This document shows positions 27,118 to 34,727 of a stretch of DNA of 34,727 bases, piece after piece. The translations under genes were made by a program, and so were the position numbers. The notes below the pieces were generated by a model. The model had not been told where the DNA came from, did no database searches, and saw only the letters and a list, made by a program, of their open reading frames with translations. How positions within the stretch are numbered: position 1 is the first letter of the stretch; every line of letters begins with the position of its first letter. Origin of the DNA: Gemmatimonadota bacterium (GTDB lineage: Bacteria > Gemmatimonadota > Gemmatimonadetes > Longimicrobiales > Gaopeijiaceae); NCBI GenBank assembly GCA_029863645.1, contig JAOTVA010000022.1, positions 1 through 34,727 of the forward strand. The letters run 5' to 3'.

Positions 27118-27693
27118 CTAGGGCAGCGCGGACCGAAGAAACGCTACGAGCGTCGAGGATTCGAAGCTCAAGAAGCGATCGCGCACCGCGACTGGGTCAT
27201 GCTCTTGAAAGATTAGAGCAGTGCGGTGAATGCGGTTCGACTGACGATTTTCGAACGCGATGAAGCCACGCCAGGTGACTCCGTCGCGGAACGACCTGAG
27301 GTGGGCCTGCCACGGATACCGATCGTGAGAGAACTCACGAGTCTCGACGGTCACGGGGGCTCCTGCATCGGGAGCGTCCGCCGAGTCGTCGACGTCGTAG
27401 AGGTGCGCCGTCGGGTTCCGAGCCAGGTCATCGCACCAGGTCTCGAACGGCGGGAGAGGGAGTAGGGCTTCGCAGTAGCGCACGAGACTCGCCATGAGGT
27501 CGGCGTCCTCGCCTCCCCCACTCAGGCCCGCTCGTCTGGCACGTCGGCAAAGCGGCCGAATCGCCTCAGGAGGTAACATCCTAAGCAGCCCTCTGGCCTG
27601 TCGTAGGCGATAGGCCTCGTAACGCTCGAGCTGTTCCTGCTCTGTGCCTGGGCCATGGGCAATCCCGTGGCCCACGGCTCCGCCGGTCAGCAT
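27118..27693 (-). CDS. Orphan two-domain protein (helical domain, then beta domain)
   Basis: The protein has 191 residues. Residues 28-100 form the helical module shared with the 26042 gene, ending LLPLPPFETWCDDLARNP. Residues 126-191 form a second module: WQAHLRSFRDGVTWRGFIAF, later HRTALIFQEHD and a final helix TLVAFLRSALP. The second module matches the N-terminal part of the 28832-29509 protein (SWHGYFSF ... RTTDIFIED ... [11 protein letters not shown]). The two proteins thus carry the same two domains in opposite order. No signal peptide, membrane segment or enzyme motif is visible. ATG at 27693 has only a distant GAG as Shine-Dalgarno; a GTG six codons later is an alternative. The gene follows the 27733 gene by 39 bases and may be co-transcribed with it. 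Confidence 0.72.
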   Translation of the reverse strand: MLTGGAVGHGIAHGPGTEQEQLERYEAYRLRQARGLLRMLPPEAIRPLCRRARRAGLSGGGEDADLMASLVRYCEALLPLPPFETWCDDLARNPTAHLYDVDDSADAPDAGAPVTVETREFSHDRYPWQAHLRSFRDGVTWRGFIAFENRQSNRIHRTALIFQEHDPVAVRDRFLSFESSTLVAFLRSALP

Positions 27694-28831: not shown

Positions 28832-29509
28832 ATGACCACTCTGAAAGAACGCCGACGCTCAGTCGCCTTTCTCGAGAGCCACGGGGACACCTGGGCGTGT
28901 TTCTTGGTCACTCATCCGGGCAGTGCCGGATCTTGGCACGGATACTTCTCGTTCCGCCCGAGCCACGGCGAGGTAGGCGAAGACGAAGTCCGCACGACGG
29001 ACATCTTCATCGAGGACTCCGAAGACGAGATCCACGAAAAGGCGCGGAGCCTCGGGCGCCCGCTCCTGGCCAGCCTTCTCGATTCGGCTCTCTACACCGC
29101 AGACGGGAACGGACACGCGCCGCGGCTCAGGGGACGATTTCGATCGCTCCTGGTCCAGAACTCCGTCGACATCGCGGGCGACTGGAGCGGGCACCCGGGT
29201 CCAGCGGAAGACCACGAGGTCGATCGACTACGATCGCTCTACGCGTCGTACCGGCTCGATCAGGTGGCTCATTTTATTTGCCTCGTGGACCAAGAGGCGT
29301 TCGAACATGCGGTCGACCGGATCCTGGATGGCGAGAGCGTCGACTTCCTGGCCAAGGACCGGATGCAGTACGCCATCATGGTCGTGGATCACATCGAGCG
29401 GCTGCTGCCCCTGCCCGACTTCGCGACTTGGGCGGAGGACTTCATAGCCAAGCCCGAGACGTATCGGCTCTATACCCACACGCTGCACCGGGAAGGACGA
29501 CTGCCCTGA
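28832..29509 (+). CDS. Orphan two-domain protein (beta domain, then helical domain)
   Basis: The protein has 225 residues, starting with ATG at 28832. Residues 18-89 carry the beta module: [34 protein letters not shown] and [11 protein letters not shown]. Residues 135-215 carry the helical module: [18 protein letters not shown], then [20 protein letters not shown]. Both modules recur in the 27118-27693 protein in the reverse order, and the helical one alone in the 26042 gene. The linker (90-134) is charged and Gly/His-rich. No signal peptide or catalytic motif is visible. The codon use is typical of the window. No good Shine-Dalgarno motif was seen. It is divergent from the 27733 gene and about 100 bases upstream of rpsU. 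The function is unknown. Confidence 0.75.
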
Positions 29510-30717: not shown

Positions 30718-31797
30718 TTATACGAACTCCGCCTTGGGCTCTTCCTTGAGGTGCTCCCTGAAGGCCTGCTTGTTGTTGCACCTCATGTAGGCCTCCTCCG
30801 GGGTGATCTGACCGGACATCAGGAACTCGAGGATGTGCTGATCGAGGAGCTGCATCCCGTCCTTCTTGCCCGTCTGGATGATGGACGGGATCTGATGGAT
30901 CTTGCCCTCACGAATCAGGTTTGCGATGGCTGACGTGCCCACCATGATCTCCCAGGCCGCGAACCGACTCCTGCCGCCTTTCGCCCGTAGCAGTACCTGC
31001 GCGACGACACCTTTCAGCGACTCCGCGAGCTGGGAGCGAATCTGATCCTGCTCGTCGGACGGGAAGACGTCGATGATCCGGTCCACCGTCTTCGGCGCCG
31101 AGTTGGTGTGAAGCGTCCCGAATACGAGGTGTCCGGTCTCGGCCGCGGTGATGCCGAGCTCGATCGTCTCCTGGTCCCGCATCTCTCCTACCAAGATCAC
31201 ATCGGGGTCTTCGCGCAGCGCCGCGCGCAGAGCGGCGGCGAAGCTCTTCGTGTTGGTCAGGATCTCACGCTGATTGACGAGGGCCTTCTTGTTTTCGTGG
31301 ACGAACTCGATCGGGTCCTCGATGGTCAGGATGTGGTCCTGCCGGGTCTCGTTGATGAGGTCCACCATCGCGGCGAGCGTCGTGCTCTTGCCCGACCCGG
31401 TCGGCCCGGTCACGAGGACAAGCCCCTTGGTGAGCATGCACATCTTGCGCACTGGATCGGGCAGCTTGAGGTCGTCGGCCGTGAGGATCTTCGAGGGAAT
31501 CGTCCGCATGACTGCACCGAGTCCCTTCCGCTGCCAGAACACGTTTACCCGGAAGCGCGCCAACCCTTCGATCTCGTAGGCAAAATCATAGTCGAGACTC
31601 TCTACGAACTTGATGCGCCAATCCTCCTCCATGATCTCGTAGACGAGCGTCTCCATGTCCTTGTCTGTCATCTCCCGGAACTTGATGCGCTGCAGATGTC
31701 CATGGACGCGCATGACCGGCGGGGAGCCAACAGTGAGGTGCAGGTCCGACCCTCCCTGTTCGACGAGAACCTTGAGGAACTGATCTATCTGGGCCAT
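30718..31797 (-). CDS. pilT: Type IV pilus retraction ATPase PilT
   Basis: The protein has 359 residues. ATG at 31797 gives the standard start AQIDQFLKVLVEQGGSDLHL. Upstream in-frame codons belong to another gene's end. The motifs are Walker A GPTGSGKSTT (131-140), the Asp box HILTIEDPIEF, Walker B REDPDVILVGEMRDQETIEL and the His box AAETGHLVFGTLHT. The PilT-specific AIANLIREGKIHQIPSIIQT segment is also present. The hexameric ATPase depolymerises type IV pili to drive twitching, DNA uptake or surface sensing. The sole companion here is the MshEN protein upstream, 49 bases away, whose ATPase domain appears degenerate. No pilB, pilC or pilins lie in the window. PilU is the alternative name. 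Confidence 0.95.
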   Translation of the reverse strand: MAQIDQFLKVLVEQGGSDLHLTVGSPPVMRVHGHLQRIKFREMTDKDMETLVYEIMEEDWRIKFVESLDYDFAYEIEGLARFRVNVFWQRKGLGAVMRTIPSKILTADDLKLPDPVRKMCMLTKGLVLVTGPTGSGKSTTLAAMVDLINETRQDHILTIEDPIEFVHENKKALVNQREILTNTKSFAAALRAALREDPDVILVGEMRDQETIELGITAAETGHLVFGTLHTNSAPKTVDRIIDVFPSDEQDQIRSQLAESLKGVVAQVLLRAKGGRSRFAAWEIMVGTSAIANLIREGKIHQIPSIIQTGKKDGMQLLDQHILEFLMSGQITPEEAYMRCNNKQAFREHLKEEPKAEFV

Positions 31798-31846
31798 GCA
31801 GGCGCTCCGTAGCCGCGGGAGTAGTGGTTGGAGTCGTGGTTTCGCT

Positions 31847-33109
31847 TCATGCCTGGAGCGCTTCGAGCGTCCAGTCCAGGTCATCTCCGTCCCGCTCAGC
31901 GACGTGGAGCTGCCAACGGATGCCGGCTTCGTAGGCCGGGCCGAAATCATCGACAGCACTCCAAAGCAGGAACGCGACCGACGCGACGTCGAGCGCGCTG
32001 GTCGCCCAGTCGGAGGTCTCAGCGGATAGATCGACGGTCACGACGTCGAACTGAAACGCCCGCAACGCCTCTAGCTCCGAAGCCCAGGCGGCTGGATCCT
32101 CGGACAGCCTGTGACTGAACGCTTCCGCAGCCGCCGGCCGATCTTCGGCATTGATGTAGATGCTACGCCAGGTCGGATCGAGGAACAGCTCAGGGAGGTG
32201 TGGCAGGAGTTCGTGACCGAAGGAAGCCGGATCGCTCGTGACCACGAAACGCGCCTTGCCGGAGCGTGCGAGCATTCGCACCTCGGAGAGGATGCCCTCA
32301 GACGGAGGCGGGAACCGATCCTTCAGCTGAGAGGTCTGCTGTCCCGGATGAAACAGGTATTCGAGGCCGGACTCGTCGCGTAGAAATCGCACGTCCACCT
32401 CGGTGACCGTGCCCGCGCGGCTCAACGTCCCGTCCCACATCGCACGATCATTCCTTCCAACAGCCGCCCTCGGGCTCGGGGAGAGTGACTGTTCGAGATA
32501 TCCCTCCCAGTCACCGGACAACGGCCTGCGTCGAATCGTCCCGGCGTCGTCCCACCACACGGACGCTCGCGGGCCCCTGACCGAGATTCCGAAACGCTGC
32601 GCCGAAGCTTGGACTACCTCGTCCCACGCGTCACCCAGTTCGATCGGTGCCCGATACCCTTCTTCCTCCGCAGCGGCAGCCCGCGCATAGACCTGGCGAA
32701 TCAGCTCCCGAATCTTGGAAGGCGCCGCGAGCGCCAACTCGACGTTCAGTTCGGTCCGTGAACGGAGCTCGTCGACTGCCTTGGTCTTGAGCGGCGACTC
32801 CACGATCACCGTTAATGTGTCCTCCGTCTTCATGATGGGCAGCGTCAGATGCGCGAGCGCCCACTCCGGGGACACGAGCATCGCGGCTTCGTAGTCGATC
32901 GACTCGGCGTCCGGGAAGACGTAGGGAAGGTCGGCTTGCGACGCCAACCCCCACTCCAGTTCGCCCTCGGAGACCAAGTCGCAGGCGATCAACGCCTCTC
33001 CGAAATACCCTCCGTGCTCACGCTGATACGCGAGCGCAGTCGCGACATCCCCCTCGGTGATACGCCCGACGTTCATGAGGATACTCCCGATGCTTCCGCG
33101 TTCTGTCAT
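31847..33109 (-). CDS. MshEN-domain protein with degenerate PilB/PilT-like ATPase domain
   Basis: The protein has 420 residues, starting with ATG at 33109. Residues 1-140 match the MshEN/GspE N-terminal domain of type IV pilus and type II secretion ATPases: GSIGSILMNVGRITEGDVAT, YFGEALIACDLVSEGELEWG, and PIMKTEDTLTVIVESPLKTK; members can bind cyclic di-GMP. The rest can be laid beside PilT in order: FVVTSDPASFGHELLPHLPE where Walker A should be (no GKS/T), RSIYINAEDRP at the Asp box, FDVVTVDLSAETSDWATSAL at Walker B, and VASVAFLLWSAVDDF at the His box. All catalytic residues are lost, so I infer a pseudo-ATPase. It lies directly upstream of pilT and is probably co-transcribed, perhaps as a regulatory partner. 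The ATPase homology is inference by eye. Confidence 0.75.
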   Translation of the reverse strand: MTERGSIGSILMNVGRITEGDVATALAYQREHGGYFGEALIACDLVSEGELEWGLASQADLPYVFPDAESIDYEAAMLVSPEWALAHLTLPIMKTEDTLTVIVESPLKTKAVDELRSRTELNVELALAAPSKIRELIRQVYARAAAAEEEGYRAPIELGDAWDEVVQASAQRFGISVRGPRASVWWDDAGTIRRRPLSGDWEGYLEQSLSPSPRAAVGRNDRAMWDGTLSRAGTVTEVDVRFLRDESGLEYLFHPGQQTSQLKDRFPPPSEGILSEVRMLARSGKARFVVTSDPASFGHELLPHLPELFLDPTWRSIYINAEDRPAAAEAFSHRLSEDPAAWASELEALRAFQFDVVTVDLSAETSDWATSALDVASVAFLLWSAVDDFGPAYEAGIRWQLHVAERDGDDLDWTLEALQA

Positions 33110-33196: not shown

Positions 33197-33661
33197 TTAC
33201 TGGTTGCGCGATGGAGAAGCTAGTTCCGGATCGGTGACGATGATCACCCCGCGACCGGCCGGGCCATTGCCCTCGATCAGATACGGATATCGTCCGGGTG
33301 GCGCGCCTTCGAAGCTCAACACATACCGACTGTCCCGGTTGATCAGGGGTGGTGACGCGGCCTGGTCGGTCCGCTCGAGAAATGCCCACCGCACACCTGC
33401 GACGCTGTCTGCTTCGAAGATCACCTCGTGGATGAGCCAATCCGAGGTAACGAACTCGACATGGGAGCCCGGCTCTATGGAGATGGCCACCGGATCGGCC
33501 CGCTCACTGGGCCCGCCGCTGAGTGTGACCCGGTACACACGATCGCGGAGCGTCAGTCCGAGTTCCGCGTGAAGGGTCGCATCGGGCTGCGTCTCAGGGT
33601 CAGGGGGAGGCTCGCAAGAGACGGCGATCAGCACCGCCATCCCGAACGCGAAAGACCTCAA
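33197..33661 (-). CDS. Cupredoxin-fold lipoprotein lacking copper ligands
   Basis: The protein has 154 residues. I chose TTG at 33661, which overlaps the upstream stop (TTGA) and starts directly with a lipoprotein signal peptide: RSFAFGMAVLIAVSC, with the lipobox Cys at about residue 16. Earlier in-frame starts (33691) give the same mature protein. The mature part follows the cupredoxin pattern: PVAISIEPGSHVEFVTSDW, LIHEVIFEADSV, then YVLSFEGAPPGRYPYLIEGN followed by GPAGRGVIIV. In copper-binding relatives the last stretch reads Y-x-Y-x-C-x-x-H; here Cys and His are replaced, though the first His (LIHEV) remains. It is probably a non-copper periplasmic lipoprotein. It is coupled to the zinc-ribbon gene upstream. 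Confidence 0.72.
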   Translation of the reverse strand: MRSFAFGMAVLIAVSCEPPPDPETQPDATLHAELGLTLRDRVYRVTLSGGPSERADPVAISIEPGSHVEFVTSDWLIHEVIFEADSVAGVRWAFLERTDQAASPPLINRDSRYVLSFEGAPPGRYPYLIEGNGPAGRGVIIVTDPELASPSRNQ

Positions 33662-34332
33662 CCGGACACTTCGCACCCACACGAGATGCAAAATCTCCAG
33701 TCGGGGTCTAGCTCCTCACCACAGTCGTTACACGGGACGACCTTGAGGTCCGTGCCGCAGAAGGGACAGAAGTTGAGGTTCTCACGGGCGGGCAACTCTG
33801 CACGGCACCACTGACACGCTGTGGGTGAAGCGCTCACGCCGTCCACGGATGCTTCTTGGAACACGTCCACTCCAGGCGGAACAATCCCTATCGGCTCCAC
33901 AGCGTCCTCCGAGGGTGCAAGATCGGCCATCGCGATGGGGTCCTTGGCGTACAGCTCAGCCACGAGGTCGGTGGGTTCGCTCACCGCTGTCGCAGCCAGG
34001 TCCACGTACGCTTGATTGAGTCGAACGTCGACCGCCGCATACTCGCGATAGAGGCCGGTGTTGGGGTTAGCCGTGTCGAGCTCCGCTCGAAGGTCGCGCA
34101 ACGCCGGCTCCGACTCCAGGAGCAAGTAGCCTCCCTCACCGGCCAGTAGCCTGAGCAGGGCATCTTCGTAGTCCCCGTTCATCTCCACGCCGATGCGATC
34201 TCTGTGGGAACCGTACGGGACCAAGTTCTGATAGATCTCGGCCACGGTGAACGGTCCGGTAAGGTACTCCGGGCGTTGCGTTTGAATTTCTTCGATCAGG
34301 GCGCGGTGGAACCGCTCCAGAATTTCGCTCAT
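33658..34332 (-). CDS. Double zinc-ribbon protein, 224 aa
   Basis: Two zinc-ribbon cysteine sets are clear at the C-terminus: C173/C176 with C189/C192 (CQWC, CPFC) and C201/C204 with C215/C218 (CNDC, CISC), plus a further C220. The N-terminal part (1-135) is helical and acidic: SEILERFHRALIEEIQTQRP, TVAEIYQNLVPYGSHRDRIG and NGDYEDALLRLLAGEGGYLL. It is linked to the ribbons by a disordered Pro/Val-rich stretch. No membrane segment or enzyme motif is seen. Zinc ribbons of this type usually mediate protein or nucleic-acid binding. The start ATG at 34332 is six bases after the preceding stop, so the edge gene, this gene and the cupredoxin-like gene form one transcript. The role is unknown. Confidence 0.8.
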   Translation of the reverse strand: MSEILERFHRALIEEIQTQRPEYLTGPFTVAEIYQNLVPYGSHRDRIGVEMNGDYEDALLRLLAGEGGYLLLESEPALRDLRAELDTANPNTGLYREYAAVDVRLNQAYVDLAATAVSEPTDLVAELYAKDPIAMADLAPSEDAVEPIGIVPPGVDVFQEASVDGVSASPTACQWCRAELPARENLNFCPFCGTDLKVVPCNDCGEELDPDWRFCISCGCEVSG

Positions 34333-34338
34333 CCCTTG

Positions 34339-34727
34339 CTATTCCTCCACTTCCAGGCGGACAAGACCCTGCTCGACGGCGGCGCGCAGGAACGTCTCGG
34401 GGTCCGTGAAGGGAATCTCGACGCCGGCCTGCTCATGCCACCGCTCGGCAAGCCGGCGCATGTACGAAGACATGGATTCATGCGAGAACCCTGCCTGATC
34501 GCGCATCTGCCGTACGATTTCGTGCCAAGTTCCGCGAATCAAATGGCCGTCGGCCAACCGGATCGTGCGCGATGCCTCGTCCTGGGATGCCAAGGACCGT
34601 TCGAAGAGCTCGAGCTGGCTCGGGTCGTACGTCGGATAGCCATCGGAGCCGCCCATCCGGGCCTCGACTTCGGCGAGCAATCGATCGATCGGGTCGTCGA
34701 GGTCCTCCAGCTCCCGTAACCGCTGTT
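34339..34727 (-). CDS. Hypothetical protein, 5' end beyond right edge
   Basis: The frame is open to the right edge, so the start is outside the window; about 128 residues are visible. Beyond the TTG at 34680 the frame continues (RLRELEDLDDPIDRLLAEVE), so a start inside the window is not needed. The visible part is soluble and acidic, with QLELFERSLASQDEASRTIR, then HLIRGTWHEIVRQMRDQAGF and SSYMRRLAERWHEQAGVEIP. It looks like an all-helical protein. I do not recognise the family. It is six bases upstream of the zinc-ribbon gene and probably in the same operon, since short gaps continue through the cupredoxin-like gene. Confidence 0.65.
   Translation of the reverse strand, partial: QRLRELEDLDDPIDRLLAEVEARMGGSDGYPTYDPSQLELFERSLASQDEASRTIRLADGHLIRGTWHEIVRQMRDQAGFSHESMSSYMRRLAERWHEQAGVEIPFTDPETFLRAAVEQGLVRLEVEE

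Follow-up and report, generated by a model that had tools for sequence, protein, structure and literature searches.

Results

A PilB-like gene without a P-loop lies directly upstream of an intact pilT

We analysed a window of 34,727 nt (the whole stretch of DNA under study), contig JAOTVA010000022.1 of assembly GCA_029863645.1 from a Gemmatimonadota bacterium of the order Longimicrobiales, family Gaopeijiaceae. Two genes of the pilus motor family lie in tandem on its reverse strand. The first, an ORF at 31847..33109 (-) (coordinates including the stop codon), starts with ATG and encodes 420 aa; its end is separated by 49 nt (31798..31846, (-)) from the ATG of the second, a pilT of 359 aa at 30718..31797 (-). 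The first-pass annotation had called this neighbor a complete PilT, which its TIGR01420 score of 479.5 bits (cut-off 319.1) and its P-loop, GPTGSGKST, corroborate. P-loop, Walker B, and His box are intact in 30/30 PilT sequences examined, a set that contains the window copy twice and also two contigs in duplicate. PilT is a motor without an N1 domain, and MshEN is absent among the Pfam families listed for the paired PilT.

Upstream of the pair, positions 33197-34725 of the window encode a cupredoxin-like protein, a zinc-ribbon protein, and ORF 34339-34725, a trio found upstream of the pair in most of 21 loci compared. In many of those loci a dehydrogenase gene separates the trio from the pair and a thiolase gene lies downstream; the window has neither gene at these places. 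Elsewhere in the window, the products of 27118-27693 (-) and 28832-29509 (+) look like distant paralogues, the former matching homologues of the latter at about 29–35 percent identity.

The upstream product combines MshEN with a predicted N2 domain

The 420-aa protein begins with an MshEN (N1) domain (residues 1-149; 32663..33109, (-)), as had been proposed for its N-terminal ~140 residues. Pfam MshEN (PF05157) matches residues 60-145 at 66.7 bits (cut-off 23.1), and the same model matches 26/26 family members. PDB sequence matches are to the N-terminal domains of PilF (1.9e-16), PilB (6.7e-09), and MshE, with one further row, at E 0.14, that is a protease. Pfam lists nothing besides MshEN in this product at E values up to 10, and the part after MshEN is covered by no Pfam or NCBIfam family.

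Residues 150-262 (32324..32662, (-)) are supported as a PilB/PilT-type N2 domain, at the level of predicted fold. An AlphaFold2 model of the full product, built from an alignment of four rows, has moderate confidence (mean pLDDT 65.6). Using VIA-align, model residues ~5-149 match MshEN domains (7lko_A, Z 13.1, rmsd 6.5, 131 aligned; 5htl_A, Z 12.4, rmsd 5.9, 140 aligned), and residues ~155-258 match the N2 domains of PilB (5tsg_C, Z 9.2, rmsd 2.9, 94 aligned) and PilT (3jvv_A, Z 8.0, rmsd 3.0, 92 aligned) as well as that of GspE; the first row outside secretion and pilus motors appears at Z 6.6. The best whole-model Foldseek matches are GspE, MshE, and PilB. Structure prediction, suggested earlier as a check, thus returned a motor N2 rather than an unrelated fold for the middle domain.

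The C-terminal third is probably a shortened RecA-like domain

Residues 263-420 (31850..32323, (-)) quite probably form a short, degenerate C2 (RecA-like) domain, an identity that is not proven because its similarity to PilT is invisible to ordinary profiles. At E ≤ 1, 0/26 family members match T2SSE (PF00437). When residues 150-420 alone, the C-terminal third alone, or residues 150-262 alone were compared with PilT, PilB, and combined motor profiles, hhalign probabilities were 0.1 to 0.3 percent, within the range of shuffled controls, and we therefore gave up C-terminal PilT likeness as a result of ordinary sequence profiles. The isolated local alignment of 150-420 to PilB also differs in register from the anchored one described below. 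A family profile searched against PDB sequences with hmmsearch matches motors through MshEN only, and the remaining hits (methionine synthase type enzymes and a PP2A subunit, E 0.17-0.55) were taken as chance.

Comparison of full-length profiles is more informative about placement. The alignment anchored in MshEN continues colinearly across N2 as far as residue 298, where it meets the GPTGSG segment of PilB, so that TSDPASFGHE (residues 291-300; 32210..32239, (-)), read correctly in the first-pass annotation, falls at the P-loop position. Its score is 135.7; shuffling columns 150-420 gives 128.4 (s.d. 0.8, maximum 131.9), and shuffling 263-420 alone gives 131.3 (s.d. 0.5, maximum 134.0). The unshuffled score is reached by 0/40 shuffles in each set, and likewise by 0/40 with the combined motor profile, a result to be read as supportive and not as a probability, since column shuffling removes local autocorrelation. 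The first-pass annotation also listed the Asp box, Walker B, and His box as altered, a reading that would need a residue-level alignment of the C-terminal third, past the point (residue 298) at which the anchored alignment stops.

Modelled alone, residues 258-420 give a poor structure (pLDDT 45.7). Among the Foldseek rows listed for it, 24/50 are PilB, PilT, PilU, GspE, FlaI, or CpaF chains, with no listed row significant and the motor rows at E 0.14 to 1.5. The VIA-align list for it has motors in 9/50 rows, at Z 3.6 to 5.0, mixed with FolD, phosphatases, ribosomal proteins, and other unrelated folds that score just as high (Z at most 5.2); given this mixed list and the low pLDDT, a fold claim from the lone model was dropped. 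The earlier statement that the C-terminal half aligns by eye with PilT is thus the weakest part of that reading; the N2 fold, the anchored alignment, and the motor chains among the Foldseek rows support it indirectly, and the C-terminal third alone matches no motor profile significantly.

Homologues come from one order and uniformly lack the P-loop

Among 98 related genomes searched, full-length homologues range in identity from 73 percent to about 30 percent. Three named loci came from a contig scan, each under a Gemmatimonadota or Gemmatimonadetes MAG title; two of them match contigs of genomes G005 and G023 in length, position, and identity and were treated as duplicates. When 395 genomes of the phylum were searched with a profile, matches extending beyond residue 180 were listed in 32 genomes, each being the source genome itself or a member of the same genus, family, or order; for other families of the class, the listed matches reach residue 168 at most and thus cover MshEN only. 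Among the genomes searched, no member of the family lies outside this one order, and the family alignment retrieved no relative from viral contigs.

A P-loop (G-x4-GK[ST]) is present in 0/33 translations of the family (including the window copy and two duplicates) and in none of the further translations of the wider set. Relatives with intact motifs, which would have pointed to a frameshift or sequencing error, are thus lacking among family translations, and the frame is conserved across the order. Searches of open-licence PMC papers gave no description of a dead PilB/PilT partner of this kind.

A different protein of the same genome, L004 (G000:C121:70670-71803), fuses MshEN, T2SSE, and a response regulator; its Walker A, GPARSGTSS, lacks the lysine, and its T2SSE domain still matches at 232 bits. 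On its sequence it is a candidate for a second, independent dead motor; a fusion of similar make-up, L002, has its P-loop intact.

The MshEN domain carries an altered c-di-GMP site

Wang et al. (PMC5013675) describe two c-di-GMP motifs with 12 key positions. Their equivalents here are tandem 24-residue motifs at residues 6-29 and 35-58 (32936..33094, (-)). Like the c-di-GMP receptors Vibrio MshE and Thermus PilF GSPII-B, the family keeps the tandem 24-residue scaffold with its 5-residue spacer, along with both Gly, both Gln (His in one row), and, in nearly all rows, the equivalents of Leu29 and Leu58. Unlike those receptors, it lacks both stacking arginines, replaced by Ser6 and Tyr35 in the window copy. 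Across the family, position 1 of motif I is Thr, Ser, Asn, Pro, or Met (Arg in 0/25 rows with a residue there), position 1 of motif II is Tyr (20) or Phe (6) (Arg in 0/26), and position 2 of motif II (Leu39) is Phe in 26/26. Among 29 PilB/GspE-type MshEN domains of the same clade, the position-1 Arg is present in 24 (motif I) and 25 (motif II), and Gln32 is mostly Ala.

The earlier suggestion of cyclic di-GMP control fits poorly with these data: both motif arginines are replaced in every member, and NCBIfam NF053729 (the c-di-GMP motif model) scores 34.3 bits on the window protein, below its cut-off of 38. In Thermus PilF GSPII-A constructs, Ser at the motif II arginine position abolished binding (PMC12002112). 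Canonical c-di-GMP binding by the family is therefore doubtful. The aromatic residue at position 1 of motif II could stack on a base, and a ligand, if any, would be bound in other than the canonical MshEN c-di-GMP mode.

pilT follows the gene in every testable locus

In 37/37 testable loci, pilT lies directly downstream, so that the conservation of the pair in related genomes, proposed earlier as a check, is borne out. In the first locus set pilT follows in 32/33; two of these loci are duplicates, and the exception, L029 (genome G017), is a broken copy. All 30/30 distinct testable loci of that set have gaps of -14 to 108 nt. Seven new loci with downstream DNA (L133, L136, L138, L139, L145, L146, and L149) complete the count, which excludes L148 (contig edge) and G081 (split over contigs). 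In G211 (L146; also L155, G211:C263) the PilT beside the family gene shares just 44 percent identity with the window PilT, which suggests a replaced or diverged partner.

Co-occurrence follows the same pattern. Among 59 genomes, the paired-type PilT (E ≤ 1e-120) is present in 23, and 22 of these contain the family; in the 23rd, G076, pilT lies at a contig end. Two of the other 36 genomes, G011 and G066, have the family with a pilT cut by a contig end. The remaining 34/59 have no intact family member, though many carry other PilT and PilB motors. The zinc-ribbon protein, the cupredoxin-like protein, and ORF 34339-34725 are also conserved around the pair, and adjacency alone is therefore not proof of binding.

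The two genes are lost together and the partner is under purifying selection

Both genes have been lost together in four genomes, by three deletions and one joint decay; these cases come from draft assemblies, and single ones could be artefacts. In G002, of the window's genus, a single deletion joins partner residues 1-52 to PilT residues 323-359 with the neighbors kept, and in G037 partner residues 1-94 are joined in frame to PilT residues 322-359. G053 retains remnants of partner residues 1-12 and 14-64 and no pilT at that place. On their two sides lie the dehydrogenase and thiolase genes, frequent neighbors of the pair, and from this position we read them as remnants and not as a small MshEN protein in its own right. 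In G017, two in-frame stops interrupt pilT, and the partner, spread over two contigs, has a stop and an internal deletion. A counter-case is G307 (L136, G307:C54:94353-95603), with one in-frame TAA early in the partner and an adjacent pilT whose match is open and full length; this TAA may stem from misassembly or mark the beginning of loss. Together, the uniform adjacency and the four joint losses strengthen the idea of a partnership.

Between the window and L010, dN/dS of the partner is 0.149 overall (MshEN 0.111, N2 0.195, C-terminal third 0.152) and that of pilT is 0.080, rough values given a dS of about 1.4; two closer pairs of the partner gene give 0.189 and 0.209. The whole partner gene is under purifying selection. 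From the joint losses and these ratios we conclude that the protein has a function and is linked to the paired PilT.

The paired PilTs form a clade of their own

A FastTree phylogeny of 62 sequences groups the paired PilTs in one clade (support 0.999); three rows labelled 'can' (L006, L121, and L122) are paired PilTs entered a second time. The sister group consists of 29 PilTs from other loci, mostly pilB-pilT units, and the genome's other PilT-type protein, L007, stands apart from both. The PilT tree fits descent of the partner from the pilB of a duplicated pilB-pilT pair, and the MshEN tree does not resolve descent from canonical pilB; we put forward such an origin as a hypothesis. The paired PilTs also share a conserved C-terminal tail peculiar to them, ending in EFV in 15/27 extracted tails compared with 0/26 among canonical PilTs. 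This tail is a candidate contact and nothing more.

Discussion

The first-pass annotation described a PilB/PilT-type protein without an ATP site beside an intact pilT, and the MshEN domain, the N2 fold, the missing P-loop, and the TIGR01420 match agree with that description. The family is conserved, lacks the P-loop throughout, and is genetically coupled to pilT; since the two genes are kept or lost together, the dead gene appears to be a dedicated partner or regulator of the live one. Our preferred reading, to which we give a probability of roughly 60%, is that the product is a PilB-like pseudo-ATPase, built of N1/MshEN, N2, and a shortened C2 that has no ATP site, and the obligate partner of the downstream PilT. 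Against it stand the C-terminal third, which by itself has no significant sequence or fold match, and the exceptions in G307 and G211.

Comparison with known systems places the protein near the assembly ATPases. As in PilB, GspE, and PilF, MshEN is followed by N2, and as in the canonical pilB-pilT order (G000:C49, G010:C67), the gene lies directly upstream of pilT. Unlike those ATPases, it has neither a P-loop nor a T2SSE profile match, and only about 120 residues follow the P-loop position, compared with more than 200 in them. Judging by this length, the C-terminal zinc-binding part of PilB, GspE, and PilF is presumably absent. The pair also recalls PilT-PilU, in which two motor-family genes stand in tandem, one dependent on the other. 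Work on Vibrio cholerae (PMC6762196, PMC6821130) reports that PilU works only with PilT and that ATPase-inactive PilT still supports PilU-driven retraction, a precedent for an ATPase-inactive motor protein serving another motor. Unlike PilT and PilU, both intact ATPases without MshEN, one member here is naturally dead and of the PilB type.

If the preferred reading is correct, the pair would resemble a pilB-pilT unit whose first motor has lost catalysis. The partner would bind the paired PilT through N2/C2 surfaces, perhaps in a stacked or mixed ring, and would provide in trans the N1 domain that PilT lacks, to serve in sensing or in docking at the pilus base, with a possible effect on retraction. 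More tentatively, one could imagine a split retraction motor in which catalysis and N1 reside on different polypeptides of one complex, the dead ring serves as a clutch or docking ring, and the rebuilt MshEN pocket (with Thr and Tyr/Phe for the arginines) senses another ligand or senses c-di-GMP differently; we regard this fuller scheme as speculative.

The best-surviving alternative, still an unlikely one in our judgement, is that the protein works at the pilus base as a sensor or scaffold, or on another PilB/PilC system; it would be co-transcribed with the paired PilT and required in the same process without binding it. The MshEN/N1 domains of active motors do bind platform or regulator proteins, as the titles of PDB entries for the PilB N-terminal domain with PilZ and for GspE with GspL indicate, and the conservation of other genes around the pair means that adjacency alone shows no binding. 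However, an N1 scaffold would not need the N2 and C-terminal domains, which are conserved under selection, and the joint losses remove the paired PilT yet spare other neighbors.

Less probable again is a C-terminal third that is an unrelated small domain fused to N1-N2, which would make the protein a regulator built from motor parts and not a dead motor. The failure of all 26 members to match T2SSE, the insignificant isolated profile comparison, the poor lone model, and its mixed best VIA-align rows are what such a fusion would predict; it accounts badly for the colinear anchored alignment that reaches the P-loop position and is equalled by none of 40 shuffles, for the motors among nearly half of the listed Foldseek rows, and for the placement of the segment directly after N2. 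A decaying pseudogene, or a sequencing or assembly error, is very improbable: although the ATP site is missing, G017 has broken copies, and G307 has a premature stop, full-length frames with the same architecture stay open over one order, at a dN/dS of about 0.15.

If the obligate-partner reading is true, the pair would be a natural case of a motor-family protein working without ATP, as is known from laboratory PilT mutants. Recognition among pilus motors, and between motors and the pilus base, could then be studied cleanly, as could the contribution of N1, which PilT lacks, when it is carried on another polypeptide.
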